Of a DNA stretch of 29,842 nucleotides, positions 1-29,842 are shown piece by piece. The DNA is taken from NCBI GenBank assembly GCA_946480015.1, contig CAMLIL010000072.1, positions 1 to 29,842 of the forward strand. Reading direction: 5' to 3'. The notes beneath the pieces were generated by a model. It had not been told where the DNA came from and did not search any database. It saw nothing but the letters and a program-made list of their open reading frames with translations. Position numbers and translations under genes: made by a program. This stretch comes from an uncultured Oxalobacteraceae bacterium (GTDB lineage: Bacteria > Pseudomonadota > Gammaproteobacteria > Burkholderiales > Burkholderiaceae). Each line of letters begins with the position of its first letter. Positions within the stretch are counted from its first letter, which is position 1.

Positions 1-55
1 GGAAAACTGAAATTGAAAACGATTCGTGACCGGTTGAACAACTGGGCGAAGTGGT
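1..55. repeat. Terminal direct repeat, copy 1 (circular join)
   Basis: The first 55 bases recur exactly as the last 55 bases (29788-29842). A perfect repeat of this length at both ends of a contig is the usual mark of a circular molecule assembled with a 55-base overlap. It lies inside the start of a coding gene, which argues against a biological terminal repeat. True circle length would be 29,787 bp. Confidence 0.93.
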
Positions 56-417
56 CTCGTGGCGCCCCTGCAAAGGGCATGGCCTCGAACACGGCCTTCA
101 TCTGCGACCGCATGCGAGTTGCGGCGATGGGCGAACTGCACGCGCCGTCCGGCGCCGGCGATCGCCTGGACAGCGCCGACGCCGCCAATGTGGAGCGTGC
201 GTGGAAGACCCTGCTGCCGAAGCACCGCGATCTGCTGCGCTGGCACTACATCAGGAACGCCACGCCGGGGTTTATCTGCCGGCGGATGGGGATCAAGCCG
301 CGGCCGACTAGCGTGTTCGACATCGAGCTGGCCCGCTCGGAGGCAGCGATCGACCAGGCGCTGCGCGCGCTGGCAGCGCGAGAAGCAGGGGATCGAGAAG
401 GAGTCCGATATGGCTGA
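13..417 (+). CDS. Phage antitermination Q-like / sigma-70 region 4-like regulator
   Basis: A 134-residue protein that starts at TTG, with AAGGG about 10 bases upstream when read across the circular join (around 29785). The part from about residue 60 to 105 reads as an acidic start, then LLPKHRDLLRWHYI, then FICRRMGIK. This is the compact helix-turn-helix seen in phage Q-like antiterminators and sigma-region-4-like late regulators. It is the last gene of the early operon that begins at 25851, and it sits just before the structural-gene operon at 657. Both facts fit a switch from early to late transcription. The assignment is by pattern and position; no catalytic motif exists to confirm it. The gene is interrupted only by the contig ends, not biologically. 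Confidence 0.6.
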   Translation: MKTIRDRLNNWAKWSRGAPAKGMASNTAFICDRMRVAAMGELHAPSGAGDRLDSADAANVERAWKTLLPKHRDLLRWHYIRNATPGFICRRMGIKPRPTSVFDIELARSEAAIDQALRALAAREAGDREGVRYG

Positions 418-433
418 TGAGACCATTTCGCGC
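418..433 (+). repeat. 16-bp repeat TGAGACCATTTCGCGC, copy 1
   Basis: This word directly follows the stop codon of the Q-like gene and is identical to 9332-9347, where it begins at the stop codon of an excisionase-like gene. Both copies lead into GC-rich alternating purine-pyrimidine sequence ending in a GAGGG or GAGAGG purine tract. Confidence 0.7.
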
Positions 434-656
434 GCGAGAGGAAATCAGGGCGGTCTCGGGCTCCGGACTTTCCGCCGGCATCGCGCGCACATGCGCGTGC
501 GAAGGGAATTTCCGCACCAGGTGCGCGGGCGCGCGCGAGGCATTCTGCGACCAGTACGCGCGTGCGCGCGAGGAAAACCTCAATTCTCGGAGTTTATAAA
601 AAGGCGCAGCCCTGGCGGTTTCGCACTGCAGCCGGGCCGCATGGCAGGGAGGGGCA
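418..656. promoter_or_regulatory. GC-rich repeat-filled leader before the ejection-gene operon
   Basis: No gene is supported here. The stretch is dense in alternating GCGC/GTGC tracts followed by purine tails (around 482-510, 525-545, 549-575). Bases 549-561 are identical to 8423-8435. It ends in an A/T patch (TTTATAAAA, 593-601) and a strong GGGAGGGG ribosome site before 657. A promoter or operator region for the downstream operon is likely, and a site for the Q-like protein is possible. The exact promoter cannot be fixed by eye. Confidence 0.45.
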
Positions 657-995
657 ATGGGTAAAAACGTCTACCTACGCCTGCTCGACGATCTGGCCGG
701 TGTCACCGCCCCAGAGGAACTGAAACGTCAGTTTGCAGAGCTGATCCGGCGGAACGCGGCGCTCGATGGGGTTACCGGGCTTGACCGGCAGGAGAGGATG
801 CAGTTCGCGCGTCACCTGCTCGATCTTCGCCAGCCGCGCGCGGCAATCCGCGATCGCCTCATGACTAGGTACGGAATCGGCCGCTCCCAGGCATACGACG
901 TGATTGATAGGGCCCTTCAACTGTCCGATTTTCCGCCTGGAAACCGGACGGAAGAGGAGTCCAATGGAGTATCGAATGAAAGGACCCATGGATGA
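657..995 (+). CDS. Phage helix-turn-helix protein, small-terminase-like
   Basis: A 112-residue protein with a strong GGGAGGGG site upstream. Residues about 55-90 (RAAIRDRLMTRYGIGRSQAY) form a predicted helix-turn-helix of the type found in phage DNA-packaging small subunits and regulators. It heads an operon in which almost every gene overlaps the next. No large terminase follows, so a packaging role cannot be inferred from context. A transcriptional or DNA-binding role is equally possible. The C-terminal 20 residues are polar and probably disordered. Confidence 0.5.
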   Translation: MGKNVYLRLLDDLAGVTAPEELKRQFAELIRRNAALDGVTGLDRQERMQFARHLLDLRQPRAAIRDRLMTRYGIGRSQAYDVIDRALQLSDFPPGNRTEEESNGVSNERTHG

Positions 996-1381
996 AAGCC
1001 GTTTACTTTGACCGAACACTCACCGACCTGGCGCCGGGCGTCATCGGGGCGTTCTGCATCGACCCCGGCGCCAAATGGGTCACGCTCGTCGACATCATGG
1101 CCGCGCTTGACCGGGGTGAGCCGGTCGAGATCCGGCCGGCATCCGAAACCGAGCGTGAGCGCGCGCAGGGACTCGCTGTCATTAGCGGCATCGCTTTGCA
1201 ACTAACCGAAGCGCAAGCCGCCGACGCTGCTGCGCACCCCTGTTCGGGCGCCGAGCGCCGCCTGTGCGAGAACGTCCATGTCCTCCGCGGGATCGGCCTG
1301 GAGCTGGCCAAGCCGCTACTCGGCCTGCTCGACTCAAGCATCCAGATCAACCCCACGAACATCGGAGTCGCCATCCTATGA
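992..1381 (+). CDS. Hypothetical protein in ejection operon
   Basis: A 129-residue protein. The ATGA overlap with the upstream gene (992-995) and with the next gene (1378-1381) shows tight translational coupling. I do not recognise the family. It is soluble, with no signal peptide. The middle is alanine-rich and helical, and the last third is hydrophobic (LGLLDSS...IGVAIL). It was probably acquired with the phage cassette. Confidence 0.6.
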   Translation: MKAVYFDRTLTDLAPGVIGAFCIDPGAKWVTLVDIMAALDRGEPVEIRPASETERERAQGLAVISGIALQLTEAQAADAAAHPCSGAERRLCENVHVLRGIGLELAKPLLGLLDSSIQINPTNIGVAIL

Positions 1382-1947
1382 AGAACTTCCAACGCATCAC
1401 CGCCGGCATCGACACCATGCCGCTGCTCCTGGCAATCAAGCGCCGCGCCGACCTCTGGAAGGAGGACACCTATCTGCGCGACTACCCGCAGGGGCCGTTC
1501 AAGCAGATCGAGTCGATCATGCTGCGCTTTCCGGTGAAGTCCGTGCTCGAGACCGAGGAGGAACTGCAGAAGCACCTATCGACCTACGACCAGCACGAGT
1601 GCGTCGACTACCCAGCATACAAGCTGCTGACTGAAGCGCGCCCCCTGGTGATGAACCTGATGGCCTACGTCTCCGGCGAACGCCTGGGCCGGGTCATGAT
1701 CAACAAGATCGCCCCTGGCGGCGTGATCTACCCGCACGCGGACACGCCGGCGCACGCCGAGTATTACAGCCGCTTCCACATCGTGCTCCAGAGTCAGCCG
1801 GGCGTCGTATTCCGTGCCGGTCACGAGCAGACCTACATGGGCACGGGCGAGATCTGGTGGTTCGACAACAGCCAGGAGCACGAGGTCATCAACAATAGCG
1901 GCGACGACAGGATCCACATGATCGTCGATATCAGGACTAGCCGATGA
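1378..1947 (+). CDS. Aspartyl/asparaginyl beta-hydroxylase-like Fe(II)/2-oxoglutarate dioxygenase
   Basis: A 189-residue protein. The start is the ATG at 1378, which overlaps the previous stop. A longer open frame upstream of it overlaps the preceding gene and is not needed. The double-stranded beta-helix iron site is visible: H120-x-D122 in YPHADTP, a distal H168 in QEHEV and a following basic residue (R178 or R186) for 2-oxoglutarate. Family members hydroxylate Asp, Asn or Arg side chains, or free substrates. The gene sits between virion-type genes and overlaps a GNAT acetyltransferase, so a target within the phage ejection proteins or the host is plausible but unproven. Length fits a single-domain enzyme. 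Confidence 0.75.
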   Translation: MKNFQRITAGIDTMPLLLAIKRRADLWKEDTYLRDYPQGPFKQIESIMLRFPVKSVLETEEELQKHLSTYDQHECVDYPAYKLLTEARPLVMNLMAYVSGERLGRVMINKIAPGGVIYPHADTPAHAEYYSRFHIVLQSQPGVVFRAGHEQTYMGTGEIWWFDNSQEHEVINNSGDDRIHMIVDIRTSR

Positions 1948-2399
1948 TCACCTGTCACGTCGAATCATTCGAGGAACACCTGGCCGAGCTGCAGGTACTG
2001 CTGCCGCTGCACTACGAGGAGCTGGCCCTGAACCAGGACAAGGTGCCGCTCGTGCCACAGTACGACATCTACATCGACCGCGAGCGCGCCGGCCAGCTAC
2101 TGTTCGTTACGCTCCGCGACGCCGGCGACCTGGTCGGCTACTTCATCGGCTTCATTGCCCCAGGCCTGCATTACAGCACCTGCCTGACCTGCAACATGGA
2201 CATCTTCTACGTGCGCCAGGACAAGCGCGCAGGTAGCGCCGGCGTGCGCATGTTCCGCTTCGTCGAGGCGGAGTTGCGGCGCCGCGGCGTGCAGCGCTGG
2301 TTCATGGGTTCGAAGATCCACGCGGACGCGAGCCCGCTTTTCAAACGCATCGGCGCTGCGCCGGTGGAAACCTATTACAGCAAATGGCTGGGGGAGTGA
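1944..2399 (+). CDS. GNAT-family N-acetyltransferase
   Basis: A 151-residue protein with an ATGA overlap with the hydroxylase gene. It has the GNAT layout: N-terminal strands, DAGDLVGYFIGFI (about 60-72), the NMDIFYV strand, then the acetyl-CoA phosphate loop RQDKRAGSAG (91-100) and a long helix VRMFRFVEAELRRRG. The C-terminal ADASPLFKRIGA segment is also typical. GNAT genes next to ejection-protein genes occur in podovirus-type prophages from memory. The substrate is unknown. It could modify virion proteins or a small molecule. Confidence 0.72.
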   Translation: MITCHVESFEEHLAELQVLLPLHYEELALNQDKVPLVPQYDIYIDRERAGQLLFVTLRDAGDLVGYFIGFIAPGLHYSTCLTCNMDIFYVRQDKRAGSAGVRMFRFVEAELRRRGVQRWFMGSKIHADASPLFKRIGAAPVETYYSKWLGE

Positions 2400-2401
2400 G
2401 C

Positions 2402-3277
2402 ATGAAAAAACTCAGGGGCGAGCGCAAACAAGACGCCGCCATGGATGGTGCCAAATTCTGCGGCGTGGCGGCCGCAATCGCGGCTTCGGCAGTGGTCGGC
2501 GCCACCGCGTCCTCGATCGCGTCGAACAAGGCGTCGAAGGCGCAGCAGGAGTCAGCCAAGGAAGCCAATGCGCTGGCCAAGGATACGAGCGACCAGCAGG
2601 TGGCCCTGCAGGAGAGGATGTTCAATAAGAACGTCGAGCTCCAACAGCCAGCCATCGACGCCGGCAACACCGCGCGCAACCGCCTGATGCAGCTGCTGGG
2701 CCTCTCCGCCGGCGGTGCCGACAACGGCTCCCTGATGCGTGACTTCAGCATGGCCGACTTCGAGGCTGATCCTGGTCACCAGTTCCGCATGGACCAGGGC
2801 CAGCAGGCGCTAGAGCGTAGCGCGGCGGCGCGTGGCGGCCTGTTGTCGGGCGCGGCGCTGAAGGACACGGCGCGCTTCTCACAGGGCCTGGCCACGCAGG
2901 ACTGGCAAGCAGCCATGGACCGGTTCAACACCAACCGCACGGCCAAGGAAAACCCGCTTCTGTCGCTCGCGGGCGCCGCGCAGACCGCATCCAGCACCGC
3001 CGGGGCGGCCGGCCAGAACTATGCCAACGCCGCCGGCAACGCGCTGGGCAATTACAGCGCAACCGCTGGCCAGAACATCACCGGCGCTGGCAACGCGCGC
3101 GCATCCGGCTACATCGGCACGGCAAACGCGATCAACAACGGCATGGGCCAAGCCTTCAACGGTATCCAGCAGAACCAGCTGATGGGCATGCTGCAGCGGC
3201 AGAACCAGCTGATGATCGCCAACCGCAGCGCGGACCCGATCGCATCGATGAACGCACAGAATGGATGGACCAGCTAA
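2402..3277 (+). CDS. Podoviral DNA-transfer/ejection protein (gp7-like position)
   Basis: A 291-residue protein. The ATG at 2402 is preferred over 2384 because GGGGGAG lies 6-12 bases before it. After a hydrophobic AAAIAASAVVGATASSIAS segment comes a Q/A/N-rich helical body. It contains FEADPGHQFRMDQGQQALERS, then SAAARGGLLSG, then NPLLSLAGAAQTA, hallmarks of phage DNA-transfer proteins that travel in the capsid and are injected to form a trans-envelope conduit. Length resembles P22 gp7 (about 230 residues). It is followed by two larger internal proteins, matching the three-protein ejection set. Low-complexity N/A/G repeats fill the C-terminal third. Confidence 0.78.
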   Translation: MKKLRGERKQDAAMDGAKFCGVAAAIAASAVVGATASSIASNKASKAQQESAKEANALAKDTSDQQVALQERMFNKNVELQQPAIDAGNTARNRLMQLLGLSAGGADNGSLMRDFSMADFEADPGHQFRMDQGQQALERSAAARGGLLSGAALKDTARFSQGLATQDWQAAMDRFNTNRTAKENPLLSLAGAAQTASSTAGAAGQNYANAAGNALGNYSATAGQNITGAGNARASGYIGTANAINNGMGQAFNGIQQNQLMGMLQRQNQLMIANRSADPIASMNAQNGWTS

Positions 3278-6714: not shown

Positions 6715-7089
6715 ATGACACCAGAAGAACGAATCTCCCAGCTCGAGCAGGAACTGGCAGAGGTCAAGCAACACACTGCAGAGAGCCGCGAGGTCCTCCT
6801 GGAGATGGCTGGCGCAACAAGGGCATTTGAGTGTGCCGTCCTGGCTATGCTCTCCGCGGCGAAACAATCTGAGGCGGTAGGGCGGGAAATCAGGCGGCAC
6901 CTGGAGCGCCTAGACTCGGAGCTGGTTTTCCAGTCCATGTCGGAAGCACAGATCGAGGGAGCGCAGCGGGCCAGCGAAGTGCTGATCGCTGCACTGGAGG
7001 AATCTCAAGCACAGCCTTCGCCGGCCCTCCCGGTAGTTGATCCTGAAAGCGTTGCAACACCTTCCGAGCAAGGTGACTGGGTCCACTAA
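6715..7089 (+). CDS. Small coiled-coil protein
   Basis: A 124-residue protein. Start at ATG 6715, preceded by GAGAGAAG. An upstream extension of the same frame overlaps the ejection gene and is rejected. Residues 1-30 (PEERISQLEQELAEVKQH) form an obvious coiled coil. Residues about 30-100 remain helical with Cys and Met, and the tail is Pro/Ser-rich and disordered. The function is unknown. The position after the ejection genes suggests a virion-associated or chaperone-like role, by inference only. Confidence 0.6.
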   Translation: MTPEERISQLEQELAEVKQHTAESREVLLEMAGATRAFECAVLAMLSAAKQSEAVGREIRRHLERLDSELVFQSMSEAQIEGAQRASEVLIAALEESQAQPSPALPVVDPESVATPSEQGDWVH

Positions 7090-7144: not shown

Positions 7145-7444
7145 ATGTTGAAGTCTATCCTTACCTGTGCCGCCCTAGCCTTGCTGGCCGGATGCGCAAC
7201 GACCCTGACTGGCGCGGCCGAGAAGGTCCAGATCGTGACCGCTGCTCAGAAGGAGAAGTGCCAGACCGTCAAGCTGGTGACCTTCAACCAACGCCTCGGC
7301 CCGGACAAGCCCGGCAACGCCATGAAAGCGGCGCTGAACGAAGCCGCGGCCGCCGGCGCCAATGCCTTCTACGTCGTGTCGACGTCGACGGACTGGGCGG
7401 AAGGTGCCTCGGTCGTCGGCGAGGCACTGCGCTGCGGCGGCTGA
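7145..7444 (+). CDS. DUF4156-like lipoprotein
   Basis: A 99-residue protein with a GGAG site at about 7133-7136. The N-terminus is a lipoprotein signal: MLKS, a hydrophobic stretch, then LLAGC with the lipidated Cys17. The mature part carries two more cysteines (C39 and C97) that could pair, and GNAMKAALNEAAAAGANAFYVV, which matches DUF4156/RcsF-like small envelope lipoproteins. It would sit in the outer membrane or periplasm. Next to phage genes such lipoproteins can act in superinfection exclusion or envelope sensing. That role is inferred. Other reading frames across the gene are shadows. Confidence 0.66.
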   Translation: MLKSILTCAALALLAGCATTLTGAAEKVQIVTAAQKEKCQTVKLVTFNQRLGPDKPGNAMKAALNEAAAAGANAFYVVSTSTDWAEGASVVGEALRCGG

Positions 7445-12162: not shown

Positions 12163-12735
12163 TCACGCGGCCGGCTTCACAACTCGCATAACCGTGGCCC
12201 GCGAGAGATTGTGGATGCGCGCCAGGGTACTGATCGACACGCCGGCCGCGTGCGCTTCAGTGATCGCGCGGCGATCGGCATCGGTGGTCAGCGTTGGGCG
12301 GCCGAGCGTCTTGCCCTCCGCCTTCGCACGGGCTAGGCCGGACTGGGTGCGCTCTACCAGCAGATCCCGCTCCATCTCGGCGACGGCAGCCAGCATCGTC
12401 AGCATCAGCTTGCCGGCCGCGCTGGTCAGGTCGAGTTTGCCCAGCTGGAGGACGATGACCTCAATGCGGCGCGCGGCCAGCATCTTGATCGTGGCGCCGA
12501 CGTCCTGGGCGTCGCGGCCCAGGCGGTCCAGCTTCGTCACCACCAGGGTTTCACCGTCACGAATCTGGCCAAGCATCTTGGCGAACTGCGGACGCTGCGA
12601 CGCTGATACCTTGCCCGACACCCCTTCATCCGCATACCAGTAGTCGACCGCATAGCCAGCCGCTTCGATCTCCCGCCGCTGGTTCTCCGTCGTCTGGTCC
12701 TTGGTGCTGACGCGCCCGTAACCGAAGATCGCCAT
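12163..12735 (-). CDS. Serine recombinase, resolvase/invertase family
   Basis: A 190-residue protein starting at MAIFGYGRVSTKDQ (12735); an upstream extension is not conserved in character. The catalytic serine is S10 in GRVST. The conserved arginines are in KLDRLGR (R71, R74), and AEMERDLLVERT marks the helix-E arm. The C-terminal 45 residues (DRRAITEAHAAGVSISTLARIHNLSRATVMR) form the DNA-binding HTH. Length equals small Tn3-resolvase/Gin-type enzymes. On a plasmid it most likely resolves multimers. An invertase role is the alternative. It shares its strand with the small gene at 12743, which lies directly upstream. Confidence 0.88.
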   Translation of the reverse strand: MAIFGYGRVSTKDQTTENQRREIEAAGYAVDYWYADEGVSGKVSASQRPQFAKMLGQIRDGETLVVTKLDRLGRDAQDVGATIKMLAARRIEVIVLQLGKLDLTSAAGKLMLTMLAAVAEMERDLLVERTQSGLARAKAEGKTLGRPTLTTDADRRAITEAHAAGVSISTLARIHNLSRATVMRVVKPAA

Positions 12736-12742
12736 ATCTGTC

Positions 12743-12982
12743 TCACTCAATAGGATTATGGGGGAGCCACATAGCGCAGCCGTCACGGTCAGTGCCGGCG
12801 ATCGCCATCCAGCGATTCCCCGCCTCATCAACGGCGACACAGCCGGGTATCCAGTGCTCAGGGTTGCGTAGCTTGTCCACCCAGCTGTTCACCTCACCCT
12901 GGTAGATCACGACCACGCCGCCTCGGCCTACATATCCTTCTGCTTCCCGCCACGCGCGTGCGATCTCGAGCAAGTCCGCCAT
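12743..12982 (-). CDS. Small hypothetical protein upstream of the recombinase
   Basis: A 79-residue protein from ATG 12982 with AAAGAGA upstream. A start at 13024 is in frame but lies within the iteron array. MADLLEIARAWREAEGYVGRGGVVVIYQGEV followed by WVDKLRNPEHWIPGCVAVDEAGNRWMAIAG reads as a compact alpha/beta protein with many Trp residues. I have no family name. It is separated from the recombinase start by only 7 bases, so the pair is co-transcribed. Control by the decamer array at 13000 is likely. Confidence 0.6.
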   Translation of the reverse strand: MADLLEIARAWREAEGYVGRGGVVVIYQGEVNSWVDKLRNPEHWIPGCVAVDEAGNRWMAIAGTDRDGCAMWLPHNPIE

Positions 12983-16115: not shown

Positions 16116-16189
16116 CAGATTAACACGTCGGTCGAAAACGATGCAAGAACAAATGATCAATTGTGCCCGACGGTTCTGCCGGGGCACCA

Positions 16190-17485
16190 ATGGCTACAGC
16201 GAATAGACAGCTCTCTCTCGATCTTTCGCAGCCGATAAACCACCATGAGAGGCTCCACGGGGCCGCTCATGGCACGGTGATCTATTGGGAACGCCGCGCT
16301 GGCAAAGACCGCTGGTCCAAGGTCGAGCCCGGCGATCCAGTGCAGCAACTGGTGTCCGGCCTCGCCGGCGCCCCCGACACCTTCATTAGTGCGAACCAGT
16401 TCCATGGTTGGCGGCTCGTCCGTCTCATCAAGAGCCTGCGCGCGTGCTACGTCGACATCGACGGCTCAACCGACCTCGAGGAGGCGCTGGACCTGCTCCG
16501 TGCCGCCCGTATTCCGGCGCCTTCCTTCGTCGTGTACTCAGGCCGTGGGATGCACCTGTACTGGCTGCTGGAGCCCACCCCAGGCCGCGCCCTGCCGGTA
16601 TGGCAAAGGGTGCAGGATGTCTTGATCAAGGCGCTGGCCGGCATCGGCTCAGACCCGGCCGCGCGTGACTGCGCACGGATGCTGCGCCTGGTCGGCACCA
16701 CTCACAGTAAAAGCGGAGCGCAAGTCCGCGGCGTCGTTCTGACGGATACCCTCTGGTCCCTGCATGAGCTCGCCGACGAGGTGCTCGGCGCTCGGGAAGC
16801 GAAGCGCAGCAAAGTCTATGACCTGGCCGCCGCCGGCGCGCGGAAGGGCCGCGCACCTGGCGCGACCCGATGGCAGGGATCAATCTATGGATGGTGGTAC
16901 CTCGTCTACCACGACATGGTCAAGATCTCGCAACATAAGTGGCCAAACGGCGTGCCGCCTGGCTTCCGCGATCGCGTGTTGTTCATCATGGCCGTTGCCC
17001 TCAGCTGGTTCAGCGAGCCAGCCACCCTCTACAACGAGATCCTGTCCACGGCGAAGGAAATGACGCCGTCGCTCGACGAGCATGAGATTGCCACGACAAT
17101 GGCTCCCGTTCTCAAGCGGGCGGCGATGCGCGCGGCTGGCGAGCGCCTGCACTACAACGGCAAGGACTACGACCCGCGCTACAACTACTCCGCACAGGGC
17201 CTGCGCGACTACCTGGCCGACGTCATCCCTCCAGAGCTGTACTCGGAGTTGCGCACTTTGGCGCCGGCGGAAATCATCCTGCAGCGCAAGAAGGAGCGGG
17301 ATGCCAAGCGCGATCGCGTGGCCGAGGGGCGATACGAGCAGACACGGGACCAATACCTGCAGACTGCCAACGACAAGGCTACCAGCGCGCGCCAGATGAA
17401 AGCTCAAGGGAAGACGCCAAAGGAGATAGCCGAAGAGCTGGGCGTTTCTCGCATGACCATCTCTAGGTATCTACGGGAGGTGTAA
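16190..17485 (+). CDS. AEP-type primase / plasmid replication protein with C-terminal HTH
   Basis: A 431-residue protein from ATG 16190; a GTG nine codons earlier is less likely. The primase active site is visible: YVDIDG (D89, D91), SGRGMHLYW (about 117-125, with H122), then D160 in DCARMLRLVGTTH. This is the DxD, SxGxH-type, D/h order of archaeo-eukaryotic primases found in RepB-like plasmid replication proteins. Helices with basic loops follow. The last 30 residues (GKTPKEIAEELGVSRMTISRYL) form an HTH. It probably primes replication at the plasmid origin and may recognise it. Neighbours kfrA and parAB support a plasmid backbone role. Confidence 0.78.
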   Translation: MATANRQLSLDLSQPINHHERLHGAAHGTVIYWERRAGKDRWSKVEPGDPVQQLVSGLAGAPDTFISANQFHGWRLVRLIKSLRACYVDIDGSTDLEEALDLLRAARIPAPSFVVYSGRGMHLYWLLEPTPGRALPVWQRVQDVLIKALAGIGSDPAARDCARMLRLVGTTHSKSGAQVRGVVLTDTLWSLHELADEVLGAREAKRSKVYDLAAAGARKGRAPGATRWQGSIYGWWYLVYHDMVKISQHKWPNGVPPGFRDRVLFIMAVALSWFSEPATLYNEILSTAKEMTPSLDEHEIATTMAPVLKRAAMRAAGERLHYNGKDYDPRYNYSAQGLRDYLADVIPPELYSELRTLAPAEIILQRKKERDAKRDRVAEGRYEQTRDQYLQTANDKATSARQMKAQGKTPKEIAEELGVSRMTISRYLREV

Positions 17486-18820: not shown

Positions 18821-18880
18821 TACCTCGGGATATCCTTGGCTACCCGCAGATACCCAGGGTTACCAACTGGTACCATCAGG
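18821..18880 (+). repeat. Six decamer iterons downstream of parB
   Basis: TACCTCGGGA, TATCCTTGGC, TACCCGCAGA, TACCCAGGGT, TACCAACTGG and TACCATCAGG begin at 18821, 18831, 18841, 18851, 18861 and 18871, a flawless 10-bp period. The last unit overlaps the stop of the minus-strand parB-like gene. Probable centromere half or regulatory array bound by the RHH partition protein. Confidence 0.8.
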
Positions 18881-19262
18881 AGCCAGTTCCCCATTCCTTC
18901 TCAAGCGCGGCGAGTGCCTGCTCGAGGATTTCCCCCAGCGGCATGTCCCGCTCCACCGAGATCTCCATCAGCCGCTTCTTGGCCGCGAAGGTGGTTTTGA
19001 TGTTCACCTGCTCGCTCCGTCCGGTCGTGCGGCGCCGGCTCGGAAGCTGTTCCTTCGGCTGGGCCTGGGTAGCGGCCGGTTGCTCTGGCGCCGCTGGCGC
19101 GGCCGGGGCTGGTGCAGGCTCTGGGGAAGGCTTCACTGGCTGTCGGCTCGGGAAACCAAGCTCGGCCGCCACCTGGTCGACCACATCTCGAATTTCGGCC
19201 TTGGGCTTGGCTGCCGGCGCGAAGTCGCCCAGGTCGCCGAAGGGGTTCGCACGCTCGCTCAT
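18876..19262 (-). CDS. ParB-type ribbon-helix-helix partition protein
   Basis: A 128-residue protein that overlaps the parA stop (ATGA at 19259-19262). The N-terminus is flexible and Pro/Ala-rich (about 35-75), a form often seen where small ParB proteins touch ParA. The C-terminal 50 residues (SEQVNIKTTFAAKKRLMEISVERDMPLGEILEQALAALE) are a ribbon-helix-helix. These proteins bind tandem short repeats as dimers. The decamer arrays on both sides of the operon are the obvious targets. It is not a canonical HTH ParB with a ParB/Srx domain. Confidence 0.75.
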   Translation of the reverse strand: MSERANPFGDLGDFAPAAKPKAEIRDVVDQVAAELGFPSRQPVKPSPEPAPAPAAPAAPEQPAATQAQPKEQLPSRRRTTGRSEQVNIKTTFAAKKRLMEISVERDMPLGEILEQALAALEKEWGTGS

Positions 19263-19963
19263 ACCGATGCCTCCGAGGTCTGCTGCTGGACCTTGCGCAG
19301 GGCCGAGATGACCTCCTGCGCGAATTGCTCAGCGTTCGCCACTGCCTTGTCCACGTTGGCCACCTCGGCGGCATTGAGCCCGCCCAGAGGCTGGCGGAAG
19401 GAGAACATCGCCCTGAACGCCTCCCTTTCGTTCAGCTCCGTCTCAAACACCGGGATGCCGGCAGCGACCAGTCCTTTTTCGATGTGGGCCAGGGTGCGGG
19501 TGCGGATCGCGGAGTTCGTGCGCGTCAACAGGACCGAGTACGGCAGGCGATAGCCTGGCATCCGGCGCTGGATCATCTTCTCCTGCTGCTGGATCACGCG
19601 GAAGGCGCGGCCGGCCTGCTCGGCGTCGAGTTGGCTGCCTTGGGTCGGGACGATCACGAAGTCGGCCTGGCTGACAGCCATCACGACGATCTTGGCCGCG
19701 GTGCCTTCCAGGTCGACAATCACGAATGGCGTGCGCGCGGCCGCCTCTTCGATGCGCTCGATCACGTTCTCCTCATCCGCATCCGCGACGACCGTCATGC
19801 GGTCCGGTTTGGCGCCACCCTTCGCCCAGTTCTCGATCGGGCGGTTCGGGTCGGCATCGATGACAGTGACGTCGGCGCTGCGTGCCAGCTGCTCGGCCAG
19901 GACAAGCGCCGATGTGGTTTTGCCGGCGCCGCCCTTAGGCGAGACGAAGACGATGGTAGGCAT
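19259..19963 (-). CDS. parA: ParA-family plasmid partition ATPase
   Basis: A 234-residue protein; MPTIVFVSPKGGAGKTTSA at 19963 has GAGGG upstream, and a start at 20002 would lie in the iterons. The deviant Walker A is K10-GGAGKTT-17. DVTVIDADPN is the A' motif and FVIVDLEGTAA is Walker B-like. It lacks an N-terminal HTH, so it is a small type Ib ParA, which pairs with RHH ParB proteins. ATP-driven binding to the nucleoid moves plasmid copies. The operon is probably autoregulated by ParB at the upstream iterons. Confidence 0.88.
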   Translation of the reverse strand: MPTIVFVSPKGGAGKTTSALVLAEQLARSADVTVIDADPNRPIENWAKGGAKPDRMTVVADADEENVIERIEEAAARTPFVIVDLEGTAAKIVVMAVSQADFVIVPTQGSQLDAEQAGRAFRVIQQQEKMIQRRMPGYRLPYSVLLTRTNSAIRTRTLAHIEKGLVAAGIPVFETELNEREAFRAMFSFRQPLGGLNAAEVANVDKAVANAEQFAQEVISALRKVQQQTSEASV

Positions 19964-20099
19964 TGGTATCCCTCGGTAGACGGTAGTACCAAATAGTAAC
20001 ACTGGACCTTATTGGACGCTATTGGAATAGTATCTGATGGTACTAGAAGATACTGGTATCTGATGGTACTACTTGGTACCTTTTGGATCTGAATTGGTT
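19954..20099 (-). repeat. Long decamer iteron array upstream of parA (parS-like)
   Basis: On the plus strand TGGTA or TGGAC/TGGAT cores recur at 19954, 19964, 20003, 20013, 20023, 20038, 20054, 20064, 20074, 20084 and 20095. Most steps are 10 bp. CGGTA/AGTA variants fill the gap. On the minus strand, reading toward parA, the units are TACCAAGTAG, TACCATCAGA, TACCAGTATC, later TCCAATAGCG and TCCAATAAGG. This fits a centromere and parA promoter operator. It overlaps the first codons of parA. Confidence 0.78.
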
Positions 20100-20420: not shown

Positions 20421-20423
20421 AAA

Positions 20424-21916: not shown

Positions 21917-22092
21917 ACATGACCCAACAGGCTTTGAAATCCGTTCCGTGCGTCGATGGCGTCGACGTTCCCCAACTGCTGCACGACATTGGCGAGGCCA
22001 GCGTGAACGCAAACAGTGTTGAGCTGTTCCGCCTATGCCTTGACGCCCAGCGCGTCCTGGTGGGCCTGTTTGCTCAGGAGGCACGAGCATGA
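21913..22092 (+). CDS. Small helical protein in the paralogue operon
   Basis: A 59-residue protein, ATGA overlap at both ends (21913-21916 and 22089-22092). VPQLLHDIGEASVNANSVELFRLCLDAQRVLVGLFAQEA is two amphipathic helices. It may be a partner or linker protein; no function is recognised. Confidence 0.6.
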   Translation: MNMTQQALKSVPCVDGVDVPQLLHDIGEASVNANSVELFRLCLDAQRVLVGLFAQEARA

Positions 22093-23792: not shown

Positions 23793-23860
23793 GGCAGTGC
23801 CTAGCTTTAGCGGGCGAAGAGGTGGTTCCCTTACCACCCTGGCACTGCCTCCTATTTTTT
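23793..23860 (+). terminator. Branched hairpin and T-run between mob and the winged-helix gene
   Basis: Arms GGCAGTGCC (23793-23801) and GGCACTGCC (23841-23849) pair exactly and enclose a second hairpin GGTGGT-TCCCTT-ACCACC (23821-23838). CCTATTTTTT follows. It can end mob transcription. Its size (57 bases) and complexity also suit an attenuator or copy-control leader for the gene at 23885. TTTAAGGG occurs twice after it, the second acting as ribosome site. Confidence 0.62.
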
Positions 23861-23884
23861 AAGGGCTGCGTTTAAGGGAACGCT

Positions 23885-24823
23885 ATGAAGACAGGGTTCT
23901 TCGCTATTGGGCTGGCCGAATGGCGCCAAGCCTGCGAAATTGGCCTTAATCCGGCCGTCGCTTTTCTGGTTCTGGCATGTGGTACCGGTCGCGACAATCA
24001 AACCACCGCTTGGTCGGCCAATGCAGTCCAGGAATACGGCGGCATCCGCTGGGAGCGCGCCAAGCCCGCCATTGAGCAACTGGTAAAGGCCGGGCTGGTG
24101 ACGCTGGCCGAGAGCTCGACCAAGGCCAGGCCGCGCTACAAGCTGAAAATTTCCGAGGACAGAATCTGGCTGCCCAAGAATGTCGTCGTGCCGCTGGCCG
24201 GGGAAGAGCCTATCGTGCATCGGGTGCGCCAAACCCAGGACGTTTTGACCCTGCGCCTGTTTGTGGAGCTTTACCATGCCCAGAACCTGGCAGCAGATGG
24301 CGGCATTTCCCGTGAGGTCTACTACCGGAAATATGAGAAGGAAGTTTGCCGGGACGTCGGCACTATGGTCTATCTCGGGTTCACCGATGCCAATACATGG
24401 GTTTCATGGTCGACAGACGTAACGAAAGCGCACATAGGGAAAGGCGAAAACCGCGGGGAACCCTTTTTCCAGCGGATTGCCACTCTCAAGGAAATGGGCC
24501 TGATTCAGGAGGCCACCTACCTTTTCGAGTCGTCGTCGCCCGACGCGGAGATTCTGTTCCCGGTGAGTGGTCCTGAACCAGAGGAGAGGGGCATTCATGC
24601 CAAGGCTTATGAGGTGGTCGAGAACAACCTGCAGGGCGGTACAGCGCTCCTTGAGCAGCACCATTACGTGATTCCGGTCTACCGACACCAGAAGACCGCC
24701 GAGCTCTACGGCATCTTCCGCATGCGATTCCGTGCGCAGACAGCGAACACCGGCGCCTGGTATGCAGTCCTCAAAGAGAAGACGGGCGCCGCCATGGAGA
24801 TGTTCCACAGGGCAATGGTGTAG
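23885..24823 (+). CDS. Winged-helix protein, possible replication initiator
   Basis: A 312-residue protein with AAGGGA before ATG 23885. NPAVAFLVLACGTGRDNQTTAWSANAVQEYGGIRWERAKPAIEQLVKAGLVTL (about 22-74) is a winged helix. A second alpha/beta domain with VRQTQDVLTLRLFVELYHAQNL and EVYYRKYEKEV follows (about 115-157), and a C-terminal strand-rich part (YVIPVYRHQKTAELYGIFRMRF). Two-domain winged-helix proteins followed by iterons suggest a Rep initiator, and exact 10-bp TCAAGGT iterons start 4 bases after the stop. A regulator of the next gene is the alternative. Confidence 0.5.
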   Translation: MKTGFFAIGLAEWRQACEIGLNPAVAFLVLACGTGRDNQTTAWSANAVQEYGGIRWERAKPAIEQLVKAGLVTLAESSTKARPRYKLKISEDRIWLPKNVVVPLAGEEPIVHRVRQTQDVLTLRLFVELYHAQNLAADGGISREVYYRKYEKEVCRDVGTMVYLGFTDANTWVSWSTDVTKAHIGKGENRGEPFFQRIATLKEMGLIQEATYLFESSSPDAEILFPVSGPEPEERGIHAKAYEVVENNLQGGTALLEQHHYVIPVYRHQKTAELYGIFRMRFRAQTANTGAWYAVLKEKTGAAMEMFHRAMV

Positions 24824-24826
24824 ACA

Positions 24827-24896
24827 TCAAGGTGTATCAAGGTTTTTCAAGGTAACTCAAAGATGGTAGGAAGTTATCAAGGTGAATCAAGGACCA
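24827..24896 (+). repeat. Seven-unit decamer array TCAAGGTNNN
   Basis: Units at 24827, 24837, 24847, 24857 (TCAAAGATGG), 24867 (degenerate), 24877 and 24887 keep an exact 10-bp step; five carry TCAAGG. It lies between the winged-helix gene and the gene at 24947, in an A/T-richer patch. Candidate Rep-binding iterons or an operator. Confidence 0.82.
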
Positions 24897-24905
24897 CCGG
24901 GACCG

Positions 24906-24921
24906 CCTCGCTTTCGCGAGG
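24906..24921 (+). terminator. Hairpin after the decamer array
   Basis: CCTCGC-TTTC-GCGAGG (6-bp stem) followed by TTTCGACG, 26 bases before the start at 24947. Possibly a weak terminator or RNA leader. Confidence 0.4.
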
Positions 24922-24946
24922 TTTCGACGCCAAGAGGAGAGAGAGT

Positions 24947-25850: not shown

Positions 25851-26060
25851 ATGAATGCCATCATCGATTTAGGGCGTGTTACTGCCAAAACCACTCTGGG
25901 CCGCAGCACTATTTATGCGTATGTGAAGGCCGGGAAGTTTCCTGCACCGATCCAGGTCAGCCCCCGCCATGTCGCATGGATCGAGGCGGAAGTGGATGCA
26001 TGGGTCCAGGAACGCATTGCTGAGAGCCGCGCAGAGCAACCGAATGAGGTGTCGGCATGA
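25851..26060 (+). CDS. AlpA-family phage regulator
   Basis: A 69-residue protein with GGAGA before ATG 25851. VTAKTTLGRSTIYAYVKAGKFPAPIQVSPRHVAWIEAEVDAWVQERI (about 10-56) is the AlpA winged HTH: strand/helix start, SxxTIYxxxKxGxFPxPxxxxxRxxxWxxxEVDxW. AlpA and Cox proteins switch phage and satellite gene programmes and can promote excision. First gene of an operon of overlapping genes that ends at the Q-like gene. Confidence 0.85.
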   Translation: MNAIIDLGRVTAKTTLGRSTIYAYVKAGKFPAPIQVSPRHVAWIEAEVDAWVQERIAESRAEQPNEVSA

Positions 26061-26491
26061 AGCCGGCGATCGGAAAAGCAAACGCGCCCTGGGCGGGGCG
26101 CGTTCAGTTTGTTCGGGCTGGGGGGCCTGCAACACAAAAGTTAGTCGATTGCGGCGCACAGAATATCACGGAGGTTTGCAAAGAGCTAACTCTGGCTGGT
26201 GTCGCGTTGCGTTCGGCGGACGGAAAAACGCAGGTAGAGACGCTGCGCCGAGCGCTCGAGTACCGCGGTGCGCGTGGACTGAACACCTACGAGGGCACAG
26301 CGGCCGGCTACCTGCGGCTTGCGACGCGCGTCAAGGAGCTCAGGGAGCAGTGGGACATCTACACCCTGAACGAAGACGTGATCGGTCCCGATGGGCTGCT
26401 GCACAAGCGCGTCGCCCGCTACATTCTGCGCGGCCGCCGTCATGATCAGCAACCTCCGGCCCAGGCCACGCTGCCAGGAGGCCGCTTATGA
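26057..26491 (+). CDS. Phage helix-turn-helix protein (HTH_39-like)
   Basis: A 144-residue protein with an ATGA overlap with the AlpA-like gene. ALEYRGARGLNTYEGTAAGYLRLATRVKELREQWDIYTLNEDV (about 67-109) is the winged HTH seen in phage genes placed before YdaU-like genes, with the R-x-RxKELRE core. GPDGLLHKRVARYILRGRR completes the wing and tail. Probably DNA-binding in replication or early regulation. It overlaps the DUF1376 gene. Confidence 0.65.
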   Translation: MKPAIGKANAPWAGRVQFVRAGGPATQKLVDCGAQNITEVCKELTLAGVALRSADGKTQVETLRRALEYRGARGLNTYEGTAAGYLRLATRVKELREQWDIYTLNEDVIGPDGLLHKRVARYILRGRRHDQQPPAQATLPGGRL

Positions 26492-26946
26492 ATTTCTACA
26501 AGCACTTCCTGGGCGACTACGCGCGCGCCACCGGGCATTTGTCGCTGGTTGAGCACGGTGCTTTTCGGCTGATGCTGGACCACTTCTACGGTGCCGGCCG
26601 ACCGCTGCCGGCGAATCGGAAGGCGCTCTACCGCCTGCTGCGCGCCGAGACGCCGGACGAACGCCGCGCCGTCGACGCCATCGCGATCCAGTTCTGGCGC
26701 CCGCTGCCGGACGATATCGAGCCGCTCTACGAGCTGCTGGAACTGCGGACCGAGGCTGAACGCCGTCCCCTTCGCATGGTCGTGAACGAATGGACCGAGG
26801 TGGGTGGCCTGATCAATACGCGAGCCCTGGGCGAGATGGTCAAGGCCCGCGTGGTCGCTGAGAAAAACAAGCAGACTGCTATCGAGCGCGAGCAAAAGCG
26901 CCGCTCCCAGCAGCAGCTGCAGGTTGTTGGAGGAGGGCGTGCCTGA
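26488..26946 (+). CDS. DUF1376 (YdaU-like) phage protein
   Basis: A 152-residue protein, ATGA overlap upstream. MNFYKHFLGDYARATGHLSLVEHGAFRLMLDHFYGAGRPLPANRKALYRLLRA (1-53) is the DUF1376 signature with its Y/F-K-x-hhGDY opening. The C-terminal half is a charged helix. YdaU-like proteins lie in phage replication regions, often before helicase loaders or helicases. Many have a long variable tail after this point, which is missing here. See the helicase N-terminus. Confidence 0.82.
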   Translation: MNFYKHFLGDYARATGHLSLVEHGAFRLMLDHFYGAGRPLPANRKALYRLLRAETPDERRAVDAIAIQFWRPLPDDIEPLYELLELRTEAERRPLRMVVNEWTEVGGLINTRALGEMVKARVVAEKNKQTAIEREQKRRSQQQLQVVGGGRA

Positions 26947-28601
26947 TGCTCAACAATGCCGTTTCTGGACCACAGACTGATGCACGAATGGAGCACGCAG
27001 CGTGCTCGTTGCGTGATACCACTTGTGCACGTACCCATAGCCATAGCCATAGCCATAGCAGTAAACCACCAACCCCGCCCAGCCAGGGCGCCGCCGATTC
27101 CGGCACCCTCACTCTCCGGCCTTACCAATCCCTCGCAGTCCAAAATCTCCGCCGTGCCCTGGCCGGGGGAATTGTTCGCGAGATGCTCTGCAGTCCGACC
27201 GGGAGTGGCAAGACCGAGATCGGCATGGCCCTGGTGCGCGGCGCCAGGTCGAAGCACAAGCGGGTGATCTTCCTCTGCAACCGCGTGCACCTGGTCGAGC
27301 AGACGGCGCGCCGCTTCGCCAAGGCCGGGATCGCTCACGGGATCATCCAAGGGGAGAACACGACGCGCGTCTACGAGAGCGTGCTGGTGGCTAGCATCCA
27401 GACCGTTGTTCGTCGAGGCCTTCCGGAGGTCGACCTGATCATCATCGACGAGGCGCACACCGTTGCCGGATCCAGCGAATACCGCGCCGTGCTCGCCGCG
27501 GCCAAGGGTGTTCCCGTGATCGGCCTGTCGGCCACGCCGTACGCCCGAGGCCTGGGCAAGCACTACGACGAGCTGGGCGGCGCGCTGTTCGAGCACATGA
27601 CGGTGGCGGCGACGATCCCGGAGCTGATCGAGGCCGGCTACCTGGTCGACTGCGACGTGTACGCGCCGAGCGAGCCGGACATGTCCGGGATCAAGCAGGC
27701 CCGCAACGCCTTCGGCGACATGGACTACACCGACGCCGACGTCGGCCGCGCCGCCGACAAACCGGAGCTGGTGGGCGACATCGTGACGCACTGGCTGCGC
27801 CTGGCGCGCGGGACGCCGACCGTCTGCTTTGCGGCGAACATCGCCCACAGCAAACACATCGTCGAGCGCTTCCAGGCCGCCGGCGTAAGCGCCGAGCATA
27901 TCGACTGCTACACCGACGCGGAGGAGCGCCGCGAGATCCTGCGCCGCATGGAGACCGGGGAGACGATGGTCCTGTCGAACGTGGGCATCCTCGCCGAGGG
28001 CTGGGACTTCCCAGCATGCCGCACGCTGATCCTGGCGCGGCCGACCCGTTCGCTCATCCGCTACATCCAGATGGCCGGGCGGGTGCTGCGCCCACACGCC
28101 AGCAAGGACCGCGCGCTGATCCTCGACCATTCCGGCTCGGTGGTGCGCCTGGGGTTTCCGACGGAGGAGTTCCCCCTCGAGCTCGATGACGGATCGCCTA
28201 GGGACGCGAAGGGCGGACAGGAGGAGCGGGAAAAGCCCCTGCCGAAGGCCTGCCCCTCCTGCAGTTACGTCAAGGCCGTGCACAAGTGCCCGGTGTGCGG
28301 CTTCGCGCCGGAGCGGCGTTCGGACGTCCAAGTGCGCGCCGGCGACCTGGTGCCGCTCAAGAAGAAGCCCAAGGCGCAGAAGGTCGACAAGCAGGCGTTC
28401 TACTCCCAGCTGCTCACCGTCGCCCAGGACGAGGGGTTCAAACCAGGATGGGTATCGCACAAGTACCGGGAGTATTTCGGGGTCTGGCCGCGAGGCATGC
28501 AGAACGTTTCGGCGCCGGCCGGTCGGGAGGTCCTGGGCATCCTGAAGCACCTGCAGATCAAGGGCGCAAAGCAGAGGGAGGGCCAGCATGCAGGCGATTA
28601 A
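26946..28601 (+). CDS. Superfamily 2 DEAH-type phage helicase
   Basis: A 551-residue protein with strong GGAGGAGGG before ATG 26946. Core motifs: RPYQ (58-61), Walker A SPTGSGKT (83-90), DEAH (168-171), SATP (195-198), EGWDFP (351-356), QMAGRVLRP (375-383). A four-Cys zinc knuckle follows (C436, C439, C448, C451). The first 55 residues are low-complexity, including HSHSHSHS from a (CATAGC)x4 repeat, and do not belong to the helicase fold. It unwinds DNA for phage-type replication alongside the following primase, whose start overlaps by 14 bases. Confidence 0.88.
   Translation: MLNNAVSGPQTDARMEHAACSLRDTTCARTHSHSHSHSSKPPTPPSQGAADSGTLTLRPYQSLAVQNLRRALAGGIVREMLCSPTGSGKTEIGMALVRGARSKHKRVIFLCNRVHLVEQTARRFAKAGIAHGIIQGENTTRVYESVLVASIQTVVRRGLPEVDLIIIDEAHTVAGSSEYRAVLAAAKGVPVIGLSATPYARGLGKHYDELGGALFEHMTVAATIPELIEAGYLVDCDVYAPSEPDMSGIKQARNAFGDMDYTDADVGRAADKPELVGDIVTHWLRLARGTPTVCFAANIAHSKHIVERFQAAGVSAEHIDCYTDAEERREILRRMETGETMVLSNVGILAEGWDFPACRTLILARPTRSLIRYIQMAGRVLRPHASKDRALILDHSGSVVRLGFPTEEFPLELDDGSPRDAKGGQEEREKPLPKACPSCSYVKAVHKCPVCGFAPERRSDVQVRAGDLVPLKKKPKAQKVDKQAFYSQLLTVAQDEGFKPGWVSHKYREYFGVWPRGMQNVSAPAGREVLGILKHLQIKGAKQREGQHAGD
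26991..27007. repeat. Palindrome GAGCACGC-A-GCGTGCTC
   Basis: A 17-base perfect palindrome inside the helicase N-terminal tail coding sequence, shortly after its start. It could form an mRNA hairpin affecting helicase translation. Confidence 0.6.
27036..27059 (+). repeat. (CATAGC)x4 microsatellite
   Basis: Four hexamers encode alternating His-Ser in the helicase tail. The unit is six bases, so copy changes keep the frame. Confidence 0.85.
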
Positions 28602-29514
28602 GACGCGAACCGCCGATGAAGCGGTCGGTCGCTGGCCCGGCATCCTGCAGCAGCTGGGGATCGACCCCGCCTACCTGAGCAAGAAGCACGGCCCCTGCCC
28701 GATCTGCGCAGGCAAGGACCGGTACAGGTTCGACGACAAGGCCGGCCGCGGCACCTGGATCTGCTCGCACTGCGGATCGGGCGACGGCTTCCAGCTGCTG
28801 CAGCGCGTGGTCGGCTGGTCGTTCAGCGAGGCGGCCAAGCAGGTCGACCGGATAGTCGGGACGGTGCCGGCCGGGCCTATCGCGCCGGAGCGGACCGACG
28901 CCAGCAAGATCCGCGCGCTCACCCAGGTGTGGGAGACCAGCAAGGCCGTCGTGCACGGTGACCCGGTGTGGCGGTACTTGAACCGGCGCCTCGGCCTCGA
29001 GCAGGTGCCGCCCGGCCTCCGGCTGCACCCTGGACTCCGGTACACCGACGACGACGGCGTCGACCTCGGCCGCTTCCCCGCGATGATCGCCAGGATCCAG
29101 TACCCGGACGGCGCCGGAGCGTCGATCCACCGGACCTACCTGACGGACGACGGACAGAAGGCGCCCGTGCCGCAGCCGAAGAAGATCATGGCCGGCAAGC
29201 CCCTGAATACGGGCGCTGTGAGGCTTGCGGCAGCCGGGACGACTCTCGGTATCGCCGAGGGCATCGAAACGGCGCTGGCGGCCTCCAGGCGCTTCGGCAT
29301 GCCAGTTTGGGCGGCGACCAACGCGGTGCTGCTGGAAGCATGGGTTCCCCCGGAAGGCGTGGAGCGCGTGCTGATCGCCGGGGACAACGACGCCAGCTTC
29401 ACAGGGCAGGCTGCGGCGTTCGGGTTAGCACGCCGGTTAGTGCAGAAAGGCCTCGCCGTCGAGATCCGGATACCGGACCAGGTCGAAAGGGACTGGGCCG
29501 ATGAAGGTGTCTAA
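28588..29514 (+). CDS. P4-type phage/plasmid primase (zinc ribbon plus Toprim)
   Basis: A 308-residue protein overlapping the helicase by 14 bases. Zinc ribbon: C37PIC40 with GKDRYRFDD, then C59SHC62 and GSGDGF. Toprim: GIAEGIETAL with E224, then IAGDND with D266 and D268, followed by GQAAAFGLARRL. It has the primase module of P4 alpha-type proteins, but the helicase is a separate upstream gene. It synthesises primers for phage-style replication. Length is usual for stand-alone versions. Confidence 0.87.
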   Translation: MQAIKTRTADEAVGRWPGILQQLGIDPAYLSKKHGPCPICAGKDRYRFDDKAGRGTWICSHCGSGDGFQLLQRVVGWSFSEAAKQVDRIVGTVPAGPIAPERTDASKIRALTQVWETSKAVVHGDPVWRYLNRRLGLEQVPPGLRLHPGLRYTDDDGVDLGRFPAMIARIQYPDGAGASIHRTYLTDDGQKAPVPQPKKIMAGKPLNTGAVRLAAAGTTLGIAEGIETALAASRRFGMPVWAATNAVLLEAWVPPEGVERVLIAGDNDASFTGQAAAFGLARRLVQKGLAVEIRIPDQVERDWADEGV

Positions 29515-29746
29515 GCAGTTCATCCGCGACTTCGCCTACATCGCCAACCTCTATGGCTGGAATGCGGACGACGTCGAAGACGCGAAGGCGCAGACCAGGG
29601 CAAACCCCGAGGAGATGCGCCGGTACTGGACCCAGCTCGCTGCAGCACACCGGGCCGGGTACCAGCAGACCCCCGACAACAACTTCATTCGGCTCGGCCA
29701 CTGGCTCCAGCGCCAGGGCGACGCCAACCCACCCGACTTTCCGTGA
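29501..29746 (+). CDS. Small phage hypothetical protein
   Basis: An 81-residue protein overlapping the primase end by 14 bases. MKVSKQFIRDFAYIANLYGWNADDVEDAKAQTRANPEEMRRYWTQLAAAHRAGY is helical and acidic, with aromatic residues. I recognise no function. It is followed within 55 bases by the TTG start of the Q-like gene, so it belongs to the same operon. Confidence 0.6.
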   Translation: MKVSKQFIRDFAYIANLYGWNADDVEDAKAQTRANPEEMRRYWTQLAAAHRAGYQQTPDNNFIRLGHWLQRQGDANPPDFP

Positions 29747-29787
29747 CGCGAACGCGAAAGCGCATCGCTCCACCGTTAAAAAACAAG

Positions 29788-29842
29788 GGAAAACTGAAAT
29801 TGAAAACGATTCGTGACCGGTTGAACAACTGGGCGAAGTGGT
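29788..29842. repeat. Terminal direct repeat, copy 2 (circular join)
   Basis: Identical to bases 1-55. It repeats the first 14 codons or so of the Q-like gene (TTG start at 29800). Confidence 0.93.

Follow-up and report, generated by a model that had tools for sequence, protein, structure and literature searches.

The 29,842-nucleotide (nt) contig CAMLIL010000072.1 of an uncultured Oxalobacteraceae bacterium, analysed whole and hereafter called the window, has ends that are identical over 55 nt and is therefore a circle, of 29,787 nt. As Table 1 shows, it combines plasmid genes and a phage-type early operon with a delivery cassette containing three putative DNA ejection genes, ej1 to ej3. An initial annotation, made from the sequence alone, had assigned plasmid functions to the circle, and profile or BLAST matches bear this out for the Rep-like protein, KfrA, ParA, the resolvase and the MobV relaxase; the archaeo-eukaryotic primase fold suggested for Rep found no Pfam match. 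Rep, of 440 residues, matches 'DNA-primase RepB domain' proteins of plasmids and is 44-45% identical to its counterparts on small plasmids of Acidithiobacillus and Methylomarinovum; a search of viral contigs returned no relatives of it. The small companion of ParA has no Pfam match. The gene set of a mobilizable plasmid (replication, partition, relaxase) is complete in the window, and its content makes conjugative mobilization of the circle probable. No near-identical plasmid records were retrieved with megablast (window 1-25000), and the circle itself was not found in the viral collection, the best match to ej1 there being 74%. The ej3 protein is present in four contigs, the longest of 29,895 nt.

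Table 1. Genes and other features of the window, with the matches that identify them.
Feature	Position	Strand	Evidence and remarks
Q-like protein	13..417	+	phrog_19609 (function not known) 1.6e-23
GACCAGTACGCGC-type repeat, two copies	516..571	+	Between Q-like gene and cassette; more copies at 421, 8423, 9335
Small all-helical helix-turn-helix (HTH)-type protein	657..995	+	Directly upstream of cassette; 8-sequence alignment, AF2 pLDDT 76
Conserved small protein	992..1381	+	Alignment of 6 sequences
Aspartyl/asparaginyl beta-hydroxylase	1378..1947	+	PF05118 3e-16; 81% ahead of ej1 in prophage region G361
GNAT acetyltransferase	1944..2399	+	phrog_1249 5.6e-11; G361 78%
Ejection protein 1 (ej1)	2384..3277	+	phrog_598 DNA ejection 9e-29; 74-75% in phage contigs G004-G006
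Ejection protein 2 (ej2), 425 aa	3265..4542	+	phrog_13634 (function not known) 1e-16
Ejection protein 3 (ej3), 705 aa	4542..6659	+	phrog_5880 (function not known) 4e-40; phage contigs G005, G004 74-75%
Coiled-coil-like protein	6715..7089	+	At small-terminase (TerS) position of G003 circle and Root133 island; not recognisable as TerS
Small lipoprotein, cassette end	7145..7444	+	G003 91%, Root133 island 89%; spanin PHROG only E 0.08
Serine resolvase	12163..12840	-	PF00239 1.8e-39; Herbaspirillum 97%
Plasmid Rep	16163..17485	+	phrog_9432 1e-12; Herbaspirillum circle 68%
KfrA-like protein, 361 aa	17711..18796	+	PF11740 (KfrA_N) 6e-9
ParA and small companion	18876..20002	-	VirC1/ParA PF07015 7e-19 for ParA; G003 91% and 78%
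MobV relaxase, 368 aa	22678..23784	+	PF01076 1.2e-37; circle G003 76%
int-alpA structured RNA	23794..23865	+	RF02996, Rfam 58.3 bits (gathering score 35.8); between mobV and 312-aa gene
Conserved 312-aa protein	23885..24823	+	G003 92%, MAG island 91%
Early-operon HTH protein	26057..26491	+	PF14090 6e-4; present in relatives
DUF1376 primosomal-type protein	26488..26946	+	PF07120 1.7e-24
Superfamily 2 helicase, 551 aa	26946..28601	+	phrog_16 4e-97; family marker
Zinc-ribbon/Toprim primase	28588..29514	+	PF13362, PF08273; Herbaspirillum sp. SJZ107 90%; family marker
Small protein after primase	29501..29746	+	Kept in relatives

The block of three ejection proteins and two modifying enzymes proposed initially is indeed present and intact, with ej1 identified by its PHROG profile and ej2 and ej3 named from homology and gene order. 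Matches to ej2 lie between ej1 and ej3 in phage contigs G004, G005 and G006 and in prophage region G361, and a 69% identical homologue of ej3 bears the source annotation 'DNA transfer protein'. Neither ej1 nor ej3 has a sequence match in the PDB at E≤1. The hydroxylase and the acetyltransferase may modify virion proteins. Structure models were also made for the two small genes ahead of them: the nearest fold to the HTH-type protein is the late activator C of phage Mu, which is not a significant match, and the product of 992-1381 has no usable fold match. The HTH-type gene was considered as a TerS gene and rejected, there being no PHROG or Pfam support and both a counterpart of this gene and a clear TerS in the viral contig L071.

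Phages sharing the ejection genes were sought, as the initial annotation had suggested, and the same five genes in the window's order were found in two podoviral records, Pseudomonas phage PfAn1 and G361, the latter from the same bacterial family as the window. Unlike the window, both have terminase and head genes, in G361 a large terminase (TerL) and a head closure gene. The helicase and primase of the window were not found in the stretches of PfAn1 and G361 compared. A hydroxylase and acetyltransferase pair precedes ejection genes in PfAn1 (L001), G361, L018, L020 and L062.

The helicase-primase operon, in turn, is common to an Oxalobacteraceae family of circles and tRNA-integrated islands. 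Among the best 80 of 105 primase relatives in viral contigs (79 loci), nine loci, L069-L077, have at least 64% identity, and among 84,980 species genomes the primase has relatives at 17 loci, seven of them at 62% or above (Herbaspirillum, Massilia, Noviherbaspirillum, Collimonas). The helicase occurs at E≤1e-150 in 12 of 392 genomes sampled from the GTDB family, and the primase at E≤1e-90 in four of 62 sampled from the genus to which G009 (Massilia sp. Root133) belongs. Ten elements, the window counted, have known ends; five are circles and five islands, and at 16-30 kb they are smaller than one circular podoviral record, G006, of 39.7 kb. As befits satellites, each has its own replication together with plasmid maintenance or integration.

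Circle G003 (L077; 127-nt identical ends, 29,265 nt) has the backbone of the window, with ParA 91%, MobV 76% and helicase 85% identical, but a different ejection cassette and a TerS. The remaining circles are those of Herbaspirillum sp. SJZ107 (G001; L069, L162; 95-nt ends), with Rep and the resolvase in common; Noviherbaspirillum pedocola (G012; 127-nt ends, 21.3 kb), with a 619-residue tape measure; and G148 (1,508-nt contig overlap, 19.2 kb), with a 277-residue protein without assignment at the cassette position. The islands are bounded by direct repeats of 25-58 nt, and each of the five has an end that falls within a tRNA gene. Ejection sets are found in those of Massilia sp. Root133 (49 nt at tRNA-Thr, 25.4 kb), a Massilia metagenome-assembled genome (MAG; G010; 55 nt at tRNA-His, 18.9 kb), M. 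eurypsychrophila (G011; 25 nt at tRNA-Met, 20.6 kb) and G201 (58 nt at tRNA-His, 19.1 kb), and a phrog_6121 virion protein in G109 (51 nt at tRNA-Phe, 16.3 kb). The genomes with the helicase also include G344, with an ejection set, and G007 (Herbaspirillum), with a tape measure. G002, 26.9 kb long with ends not found, has another tape measure, of 1778 residues (phrog_24, 2e-71). Further ejection-type sets occur in L070/L071, L072, L074 and L075; ej1 of L072 and L074 belongs to phrog_598, and five proteins tested from L070, L071, L074 (ej2) and L075 had no PHROG match.

Searching instead with ej3 retrieved five of the 392 family genomes at E≤1e-60. One, G205, holds a satellite-like element, its ends not found, with the 657/992 gene pair, ej3 at 70-72%, a resolvase and what we take to be a DnaB-like gene; in the other four (G329, G353, G357, G361) the ej3 match shares its stretch with homologues of a podoviral terminase, portal or capsid. 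The hallmarks of phage-inducible chromosomal islands (PICIs) are an integrase, an AlpA-type regulator, a primase and a small terminase. The window lists no integrase, matches no AlpA model and has no recognisable TerS; its integrated relatives have an integrase, and TerS is found in two elements.

The further claim that the circle has no large terminase, portal or capsid gene withstood both an inventory of open reading frames (ORFs) and profile searches. All 17 window ORFs of at least 200 residues are in the gene list, wrong-frame overlaps having been dropped, and those above 330 residues are all otherwise assigned (ej2, ej3, Rep, KfrA, MobV, helicase), so that there is no room for a TerL or portal. 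The ten bounded elements contain 38 unlabelled ORFs of at least 200 residues, none of them in the window, and all were scanned with PHROGs without a single terminase, portal or capsid match. The first ten proved to be integrases, helicases, unknowns, one phrog_6121 'virion structural protein' and one without match, and the other 28 gave matches to five families, one each (ParA and four without function). TerL, portal and capsid queries from PfAn1 matched none of the ten elements at E≤1e-3, and all seven podoviral stretches compared (G004-G006, G329, G353, G357, G361) were matched by one or more of these queries. The PfAn1 scaffold, holin and endolysin queries matched nowhere, podoviral stretches included, and therefore have no test value. 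Among labelled proteins, those without known function include the product of 23885-24823, which has no Pfam or capsid-family match and a best PHROG of only 0.03, and the 691- and 701-residue cassette proteins of M. eurypsychrophila, without PHROG. Small assembly genes do occur in relatives, namely TerS (in G003 and Root133, with no large terminase), a partial neck gene and a scaffold-like gene. Relatives with full head and tail genes had thus been looked for. In none of the ten bounded elements could a large terminase, portal or capsid gene be recognised, and, as expected of satellites, they have no complete virion gene set of their own.

The content of the cassette position varies among these ten elements. 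Ejection genes occupy it in six (window, G003, Root133, MAG, M. eurypsychrophila, G201), a tape measure in two (Herbaspirillum, 1785 residues, phrog_24 1e-67; Noviherbaspirillum, phrog_28 2e-19), another virion protein in one and a protein without assignment in one. The ejection sets are of three types, represented by window/G205, Root133/G003/MAG and M. eurypsychrophila/G201/G344; their ej3 proteins have no mutual BLASTP match, and domains of their ej2 proteins recur from one type to another and in prophages G361 and G329. The three tape measures, the third being that of G002, likewise have no mutual BLASTP match except for one 211-residue stretch at 21%. Satellite-encoded tape measures are thus found in relatives G001, G002 and G012, the window having ejection proteins instead. 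At L162:9172-10280, beside its tape measure, Herbaspirillum has a partial neck protein (phrog_169, 6e-47) and a 174-residue protein (phrog_784), each of which matches only the C-terminal half of its profile. The second also has a weak match to a head-scaffold profile, and both are possible assembly modifiers.

Different parts of the window also have different partners. Its hydroxylase and acetyltransferase are 88% and 86% identical to those of L072 but ej1 only 46%, and with G205 it has ej3 in common but not the helicase-primase pair. That pair is also not shared with G004, G005 and G006, which have small genes in common with the window: excisionase-like (68%, G006), Q-like (35% in G006, 40% in G005) and 14178-14651 (47%, G004). 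Because cassette and replication genes keep different company in this way, the cassette looks acquired rather than left behind.

The ejection genes are under purifying selection between relatives. All ratios of nonsynonymous to synonymous substitution (dN/dS) are Nei-Gojobori counts without significance test. Between G003 and Root133 they are 0.083 for ej1, 0.159 for ej2, 0.105 for ej3 and 0.124 for TerS (dS 0.18-0.78), and for ej3 the MAG gives 0.159 against Root133 and 0.125 against G003. Values range over 0.032-0.195 for the hydroxylase and 0.106-0.252 for the acetyltransferase, and are 0.186 for the helicase (window-G003) and 0.126 for the primase (window-Herbaspirillum). Comparisons of the window with G004 and G005 yield 0.157 and 0.153 for ej3 and 0.135 and 0.194 for ej1, as a rough guide only since dS exceeds 1, and the higher figures for ej2 (0.65 against G004, 0.32 against L072) and for ej1 against L072 (0.41) come from pairs too diverged for judgement. 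The selection test initially called for therefore reveals open frames, dN/dS of 0.08-0.16 between satellites and no strong decay; neither the broken genes nor the relaxed selection of a decayed phage-plasmid is seen.

The int-alpA RNA is found in 14 of 16 elements examined, the exceptions being M. eurypsychrophila and G205. In seven integrated forms it lies 16-105 nt downstream of an integrase ORF, named as such by PHROG or BLAST in L164, L165 and L309 and by resemblance in L070, L074, L075 and G002. In the window, G003 and Herbaspirillum it separates MobV, reduced to a remnant in Herbaspirillum, from the 312-residue gene. Since both genes hold the same position relative to the RNA, MobV would appear to sit, in plasmids of this family, where the integrated forms have the integrase; no MobV match was shown in integrated relatives. 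The RNA is placed differently in G344, G109, G148 and Noviherbaspirillum. In the window it also lies upstream of the two genes first labelled AlpA, 24863-25495 or 26057-26491, though that label finds no AlpA model match, the best being HTH_39. Relatives of the Q-like gene adjoin TerS on the upstream side in phage contigs L194, L211 and L212; that of the window is upstream of the delivery cassette. The GACCAGTACGCGC repeats flank the cassette region on both sides, and a + strand copy lies near the cassette start in six of 17 elements scanned (window, G003, Root133, MAG, G201, G344); seven stretches of phage or prophage contain none. The repeat may be a regulatory, packaging or recombination site. 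The idea of a host-wide repeat was dropped, with seven matches in seven genomes, three of them inside islands, against eight for a reversed control.

Taken together, comparison shows a family with a shared replication operon and an exchangeable, predicted delivery module under purifying selection. We consider it rather probable that the circle is a plasmid-form phage satellite bringing its own delivery parts to helper virions. The broader proposition, that these are satellites, plasmid or island, built on an exchangeable delivery module, podoviral ejectosome or siphoviral tape measure according to the helper, and giving rise to chimeric particles that unite the helper's head with the satellite's delivery channel, seems to us evenly poised. 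In the model for the circle, the satellite would replicate and segregate as a plasmid. With a podovirus multiplying in its host cell, it would be amplified by its early operon, which would also turn on the cassette led by the Q-like and HTH genes. The hydroxylase, acetyltransferase and three ejection proteins would enter helper heads, replacing or joining the helper's own; the helper would supply terminase, portal, capsid and tail for packaging the satellite DNA; and the satellite's ejectosome would move that DNA through the envelope of the next cell. Induction, packaging and incorporation into virions are our inference. A satellite had already been suggested in the initial annotation, and the family and the selection on it now favour that idea over a decayed phage; its proposals of an altered host range and of packaging by a helper go further than the comparison does.

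Several observations weigh against this interpretation. No packaging sequence shared with podoviral contigs or prophages was found, the nucleotide matches all falling in homologous genes, and no helper was identified; nor does the window have a recognisable TerS. The delivery module is not universal, because in three of the 12 helicase genomes the primase is not followed by a cassette (G008, on a contig that stops about 6 kb later, G261, whose helicase is broken, and G126) and the Collimonas element looks decayed. Homology of ej2 is all that identifies the sets of M. eurypsychrophila and G201 as ejection genes, the remaining cassette proteins having no PHROG. In L071, of integrated type, the ejection genes run into a TerS (phrog_309, 9e-57) and an apparent large-terminase start at the contig end (L071:9461-10116), so that some relatives may carry more phage genes; extension beyond that end with the last 28 bases as query retrieved only L071 itself. 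Finally, MobV may offer an alternative route of spread.

That route features in a different explanation, in which the element does not package itself and its ejection proteins or tape measures would either compete with the equivalent proteins of an incoming phage or obstruct DNA entry, and so shield the cell, the plasmid or island spreading by conjugation. The same genes and the same selection would be expected, and bacterial or prophage proteins that disturb virion or tail assembly are already described. We nevertheless regard it as unlikely: a decoy needs one part, whereas the whole ejection set and two modifying enzymes are kept in phage order, the TerS of two relatives points towards packaging, and known defence models match none of ten window accessory proteins (22089-22385 lay outside the test). 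The neutral alternative, a recombination hot spot at the early operon-resolvase site that collects useless late phage genes, draws on the frequent cassette swaps, such as that between window and L072, and on the GACCAGTACGCGC repeats to either side. It is made improbable by the few kinds of virion gene at the site (ejection, tape measure, neck- or scaffold-like, TerS, one phrog_6121), by tape-measure frames intact over 619-1785 residues and by purifying selection.

Descent from a podoviral phage-plasmid that lost its head genes and retained the ejection genes as leftovers would account for the phage-type character of the Q-like gene, replication operon and ejection block, for the small genes shared with G004-G006 and for L071, should it continue into a fuller phage. 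Yet no large terminase, portal or capsid gene can be recognised in any of the nine bounded relatives, and the virion genes recognised in eight of them differ in kind; satellites compared with one another give dN/dS of 0.08-0.16, and the helicase-primase pair is not shared by G004-G006. We prefer a satellite to this null because relatives with known ends show none of these three genes and because the ejection genes, with unbroken frames, show purifying selection, which leaves decay quite improbable; the tape-measure genes at the cassette position of relatives strengthen the preference. Tape measures act inside phage tails, and their presence speaks against an envelope-crossing device working outside virions, for instance to carry plasmid DNA across the membrane. 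This last suggestion of the initial annotation, which MobV and ejection genes on one replicon might recommend, gained no support of its own, the integrated relatives having shown no MobV match, and we judge it very improbable.

Satellites are usually viewed as borrowing the tails and delivery parts of their helpers while altering heads or packaging. The PLE satellites of Vibrio cholerae are reported to build their own tape measure into chimeric helper tails, described there as the first such case; deletion of the tape-measure gene lowers transduction, and tmp genes are shown in PLE-like elements and cf-PICIs (PMC12987554). The present family resembles PLE in its predicted satellite-encoded delivery part, a tape measure in some relatives. 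It differs in that the PLE helper ICP1 has contractile tails (PMC12987554), whereas these elements belong to Oxalobacteraceae, are in part plasmids and have podoviral ejection genes in place of a tape measure in six of ten bounded cases. PISP and cf-PISP are likewise circular satellites with parA and repA, but of 11-16 kb and with capsid genes and no tail genes, where the window's family has delivery genes and no capsid was found (PMC13230959). Gram-negative PICIs, such as EcCIMP1 with helper vB_EcoP_Kapi1, have the integrase, regulator and primase of the integrated relatives; in contrast to them, virion genes are regular cargo here and a plasmid form exists (PMC11773190). Group G8 of the glacial-virome satellite phage-plasmids is also circular, with primase or prim-pol and no structural genes; its members are below 16 kb and P4-like, and are reported without naming an ejection or tape-measure gene (PMC4490671).

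In the open-licence PubMed Central literature, no satellites with ejection proteins or with Massilia hosts were found, and none in which a podoviral ejectosome is swapped for tape measures at one site. Satellites that encode tape measures (PLE) and satellites that live as plasmids (PISP) are already known, and exchange of a podoviral ejectosome with tape measures appears to be new. If the satellite interpretation is true, DNA entry would be the contested step between satellite and helper, and the chimeric-tail principle of PLE would extend to short-tailed phages and another bacterial family. The isolates Herbaspirillum sp. SJZ107 and Massilia sp. Root133 provide material in which to test what the satellites' ejection proteins and tape measures do.

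Some lesser features may be recorded. Accessory genes without assigned function lie at 7799-8443, 11263-11844, 13232-13708, 20100-20468 and 21147-22385 of the window. A gene at L166:17803-18471, with 960 homologues and no known function, is found near the cassettes of G109 and G148 and also on a 26,926-nt contig. The C4 antisense RNA (RF01695), an immunity-type phage RNA, occurs in two relatives (L166:19941-20028, L155:10840-10927).

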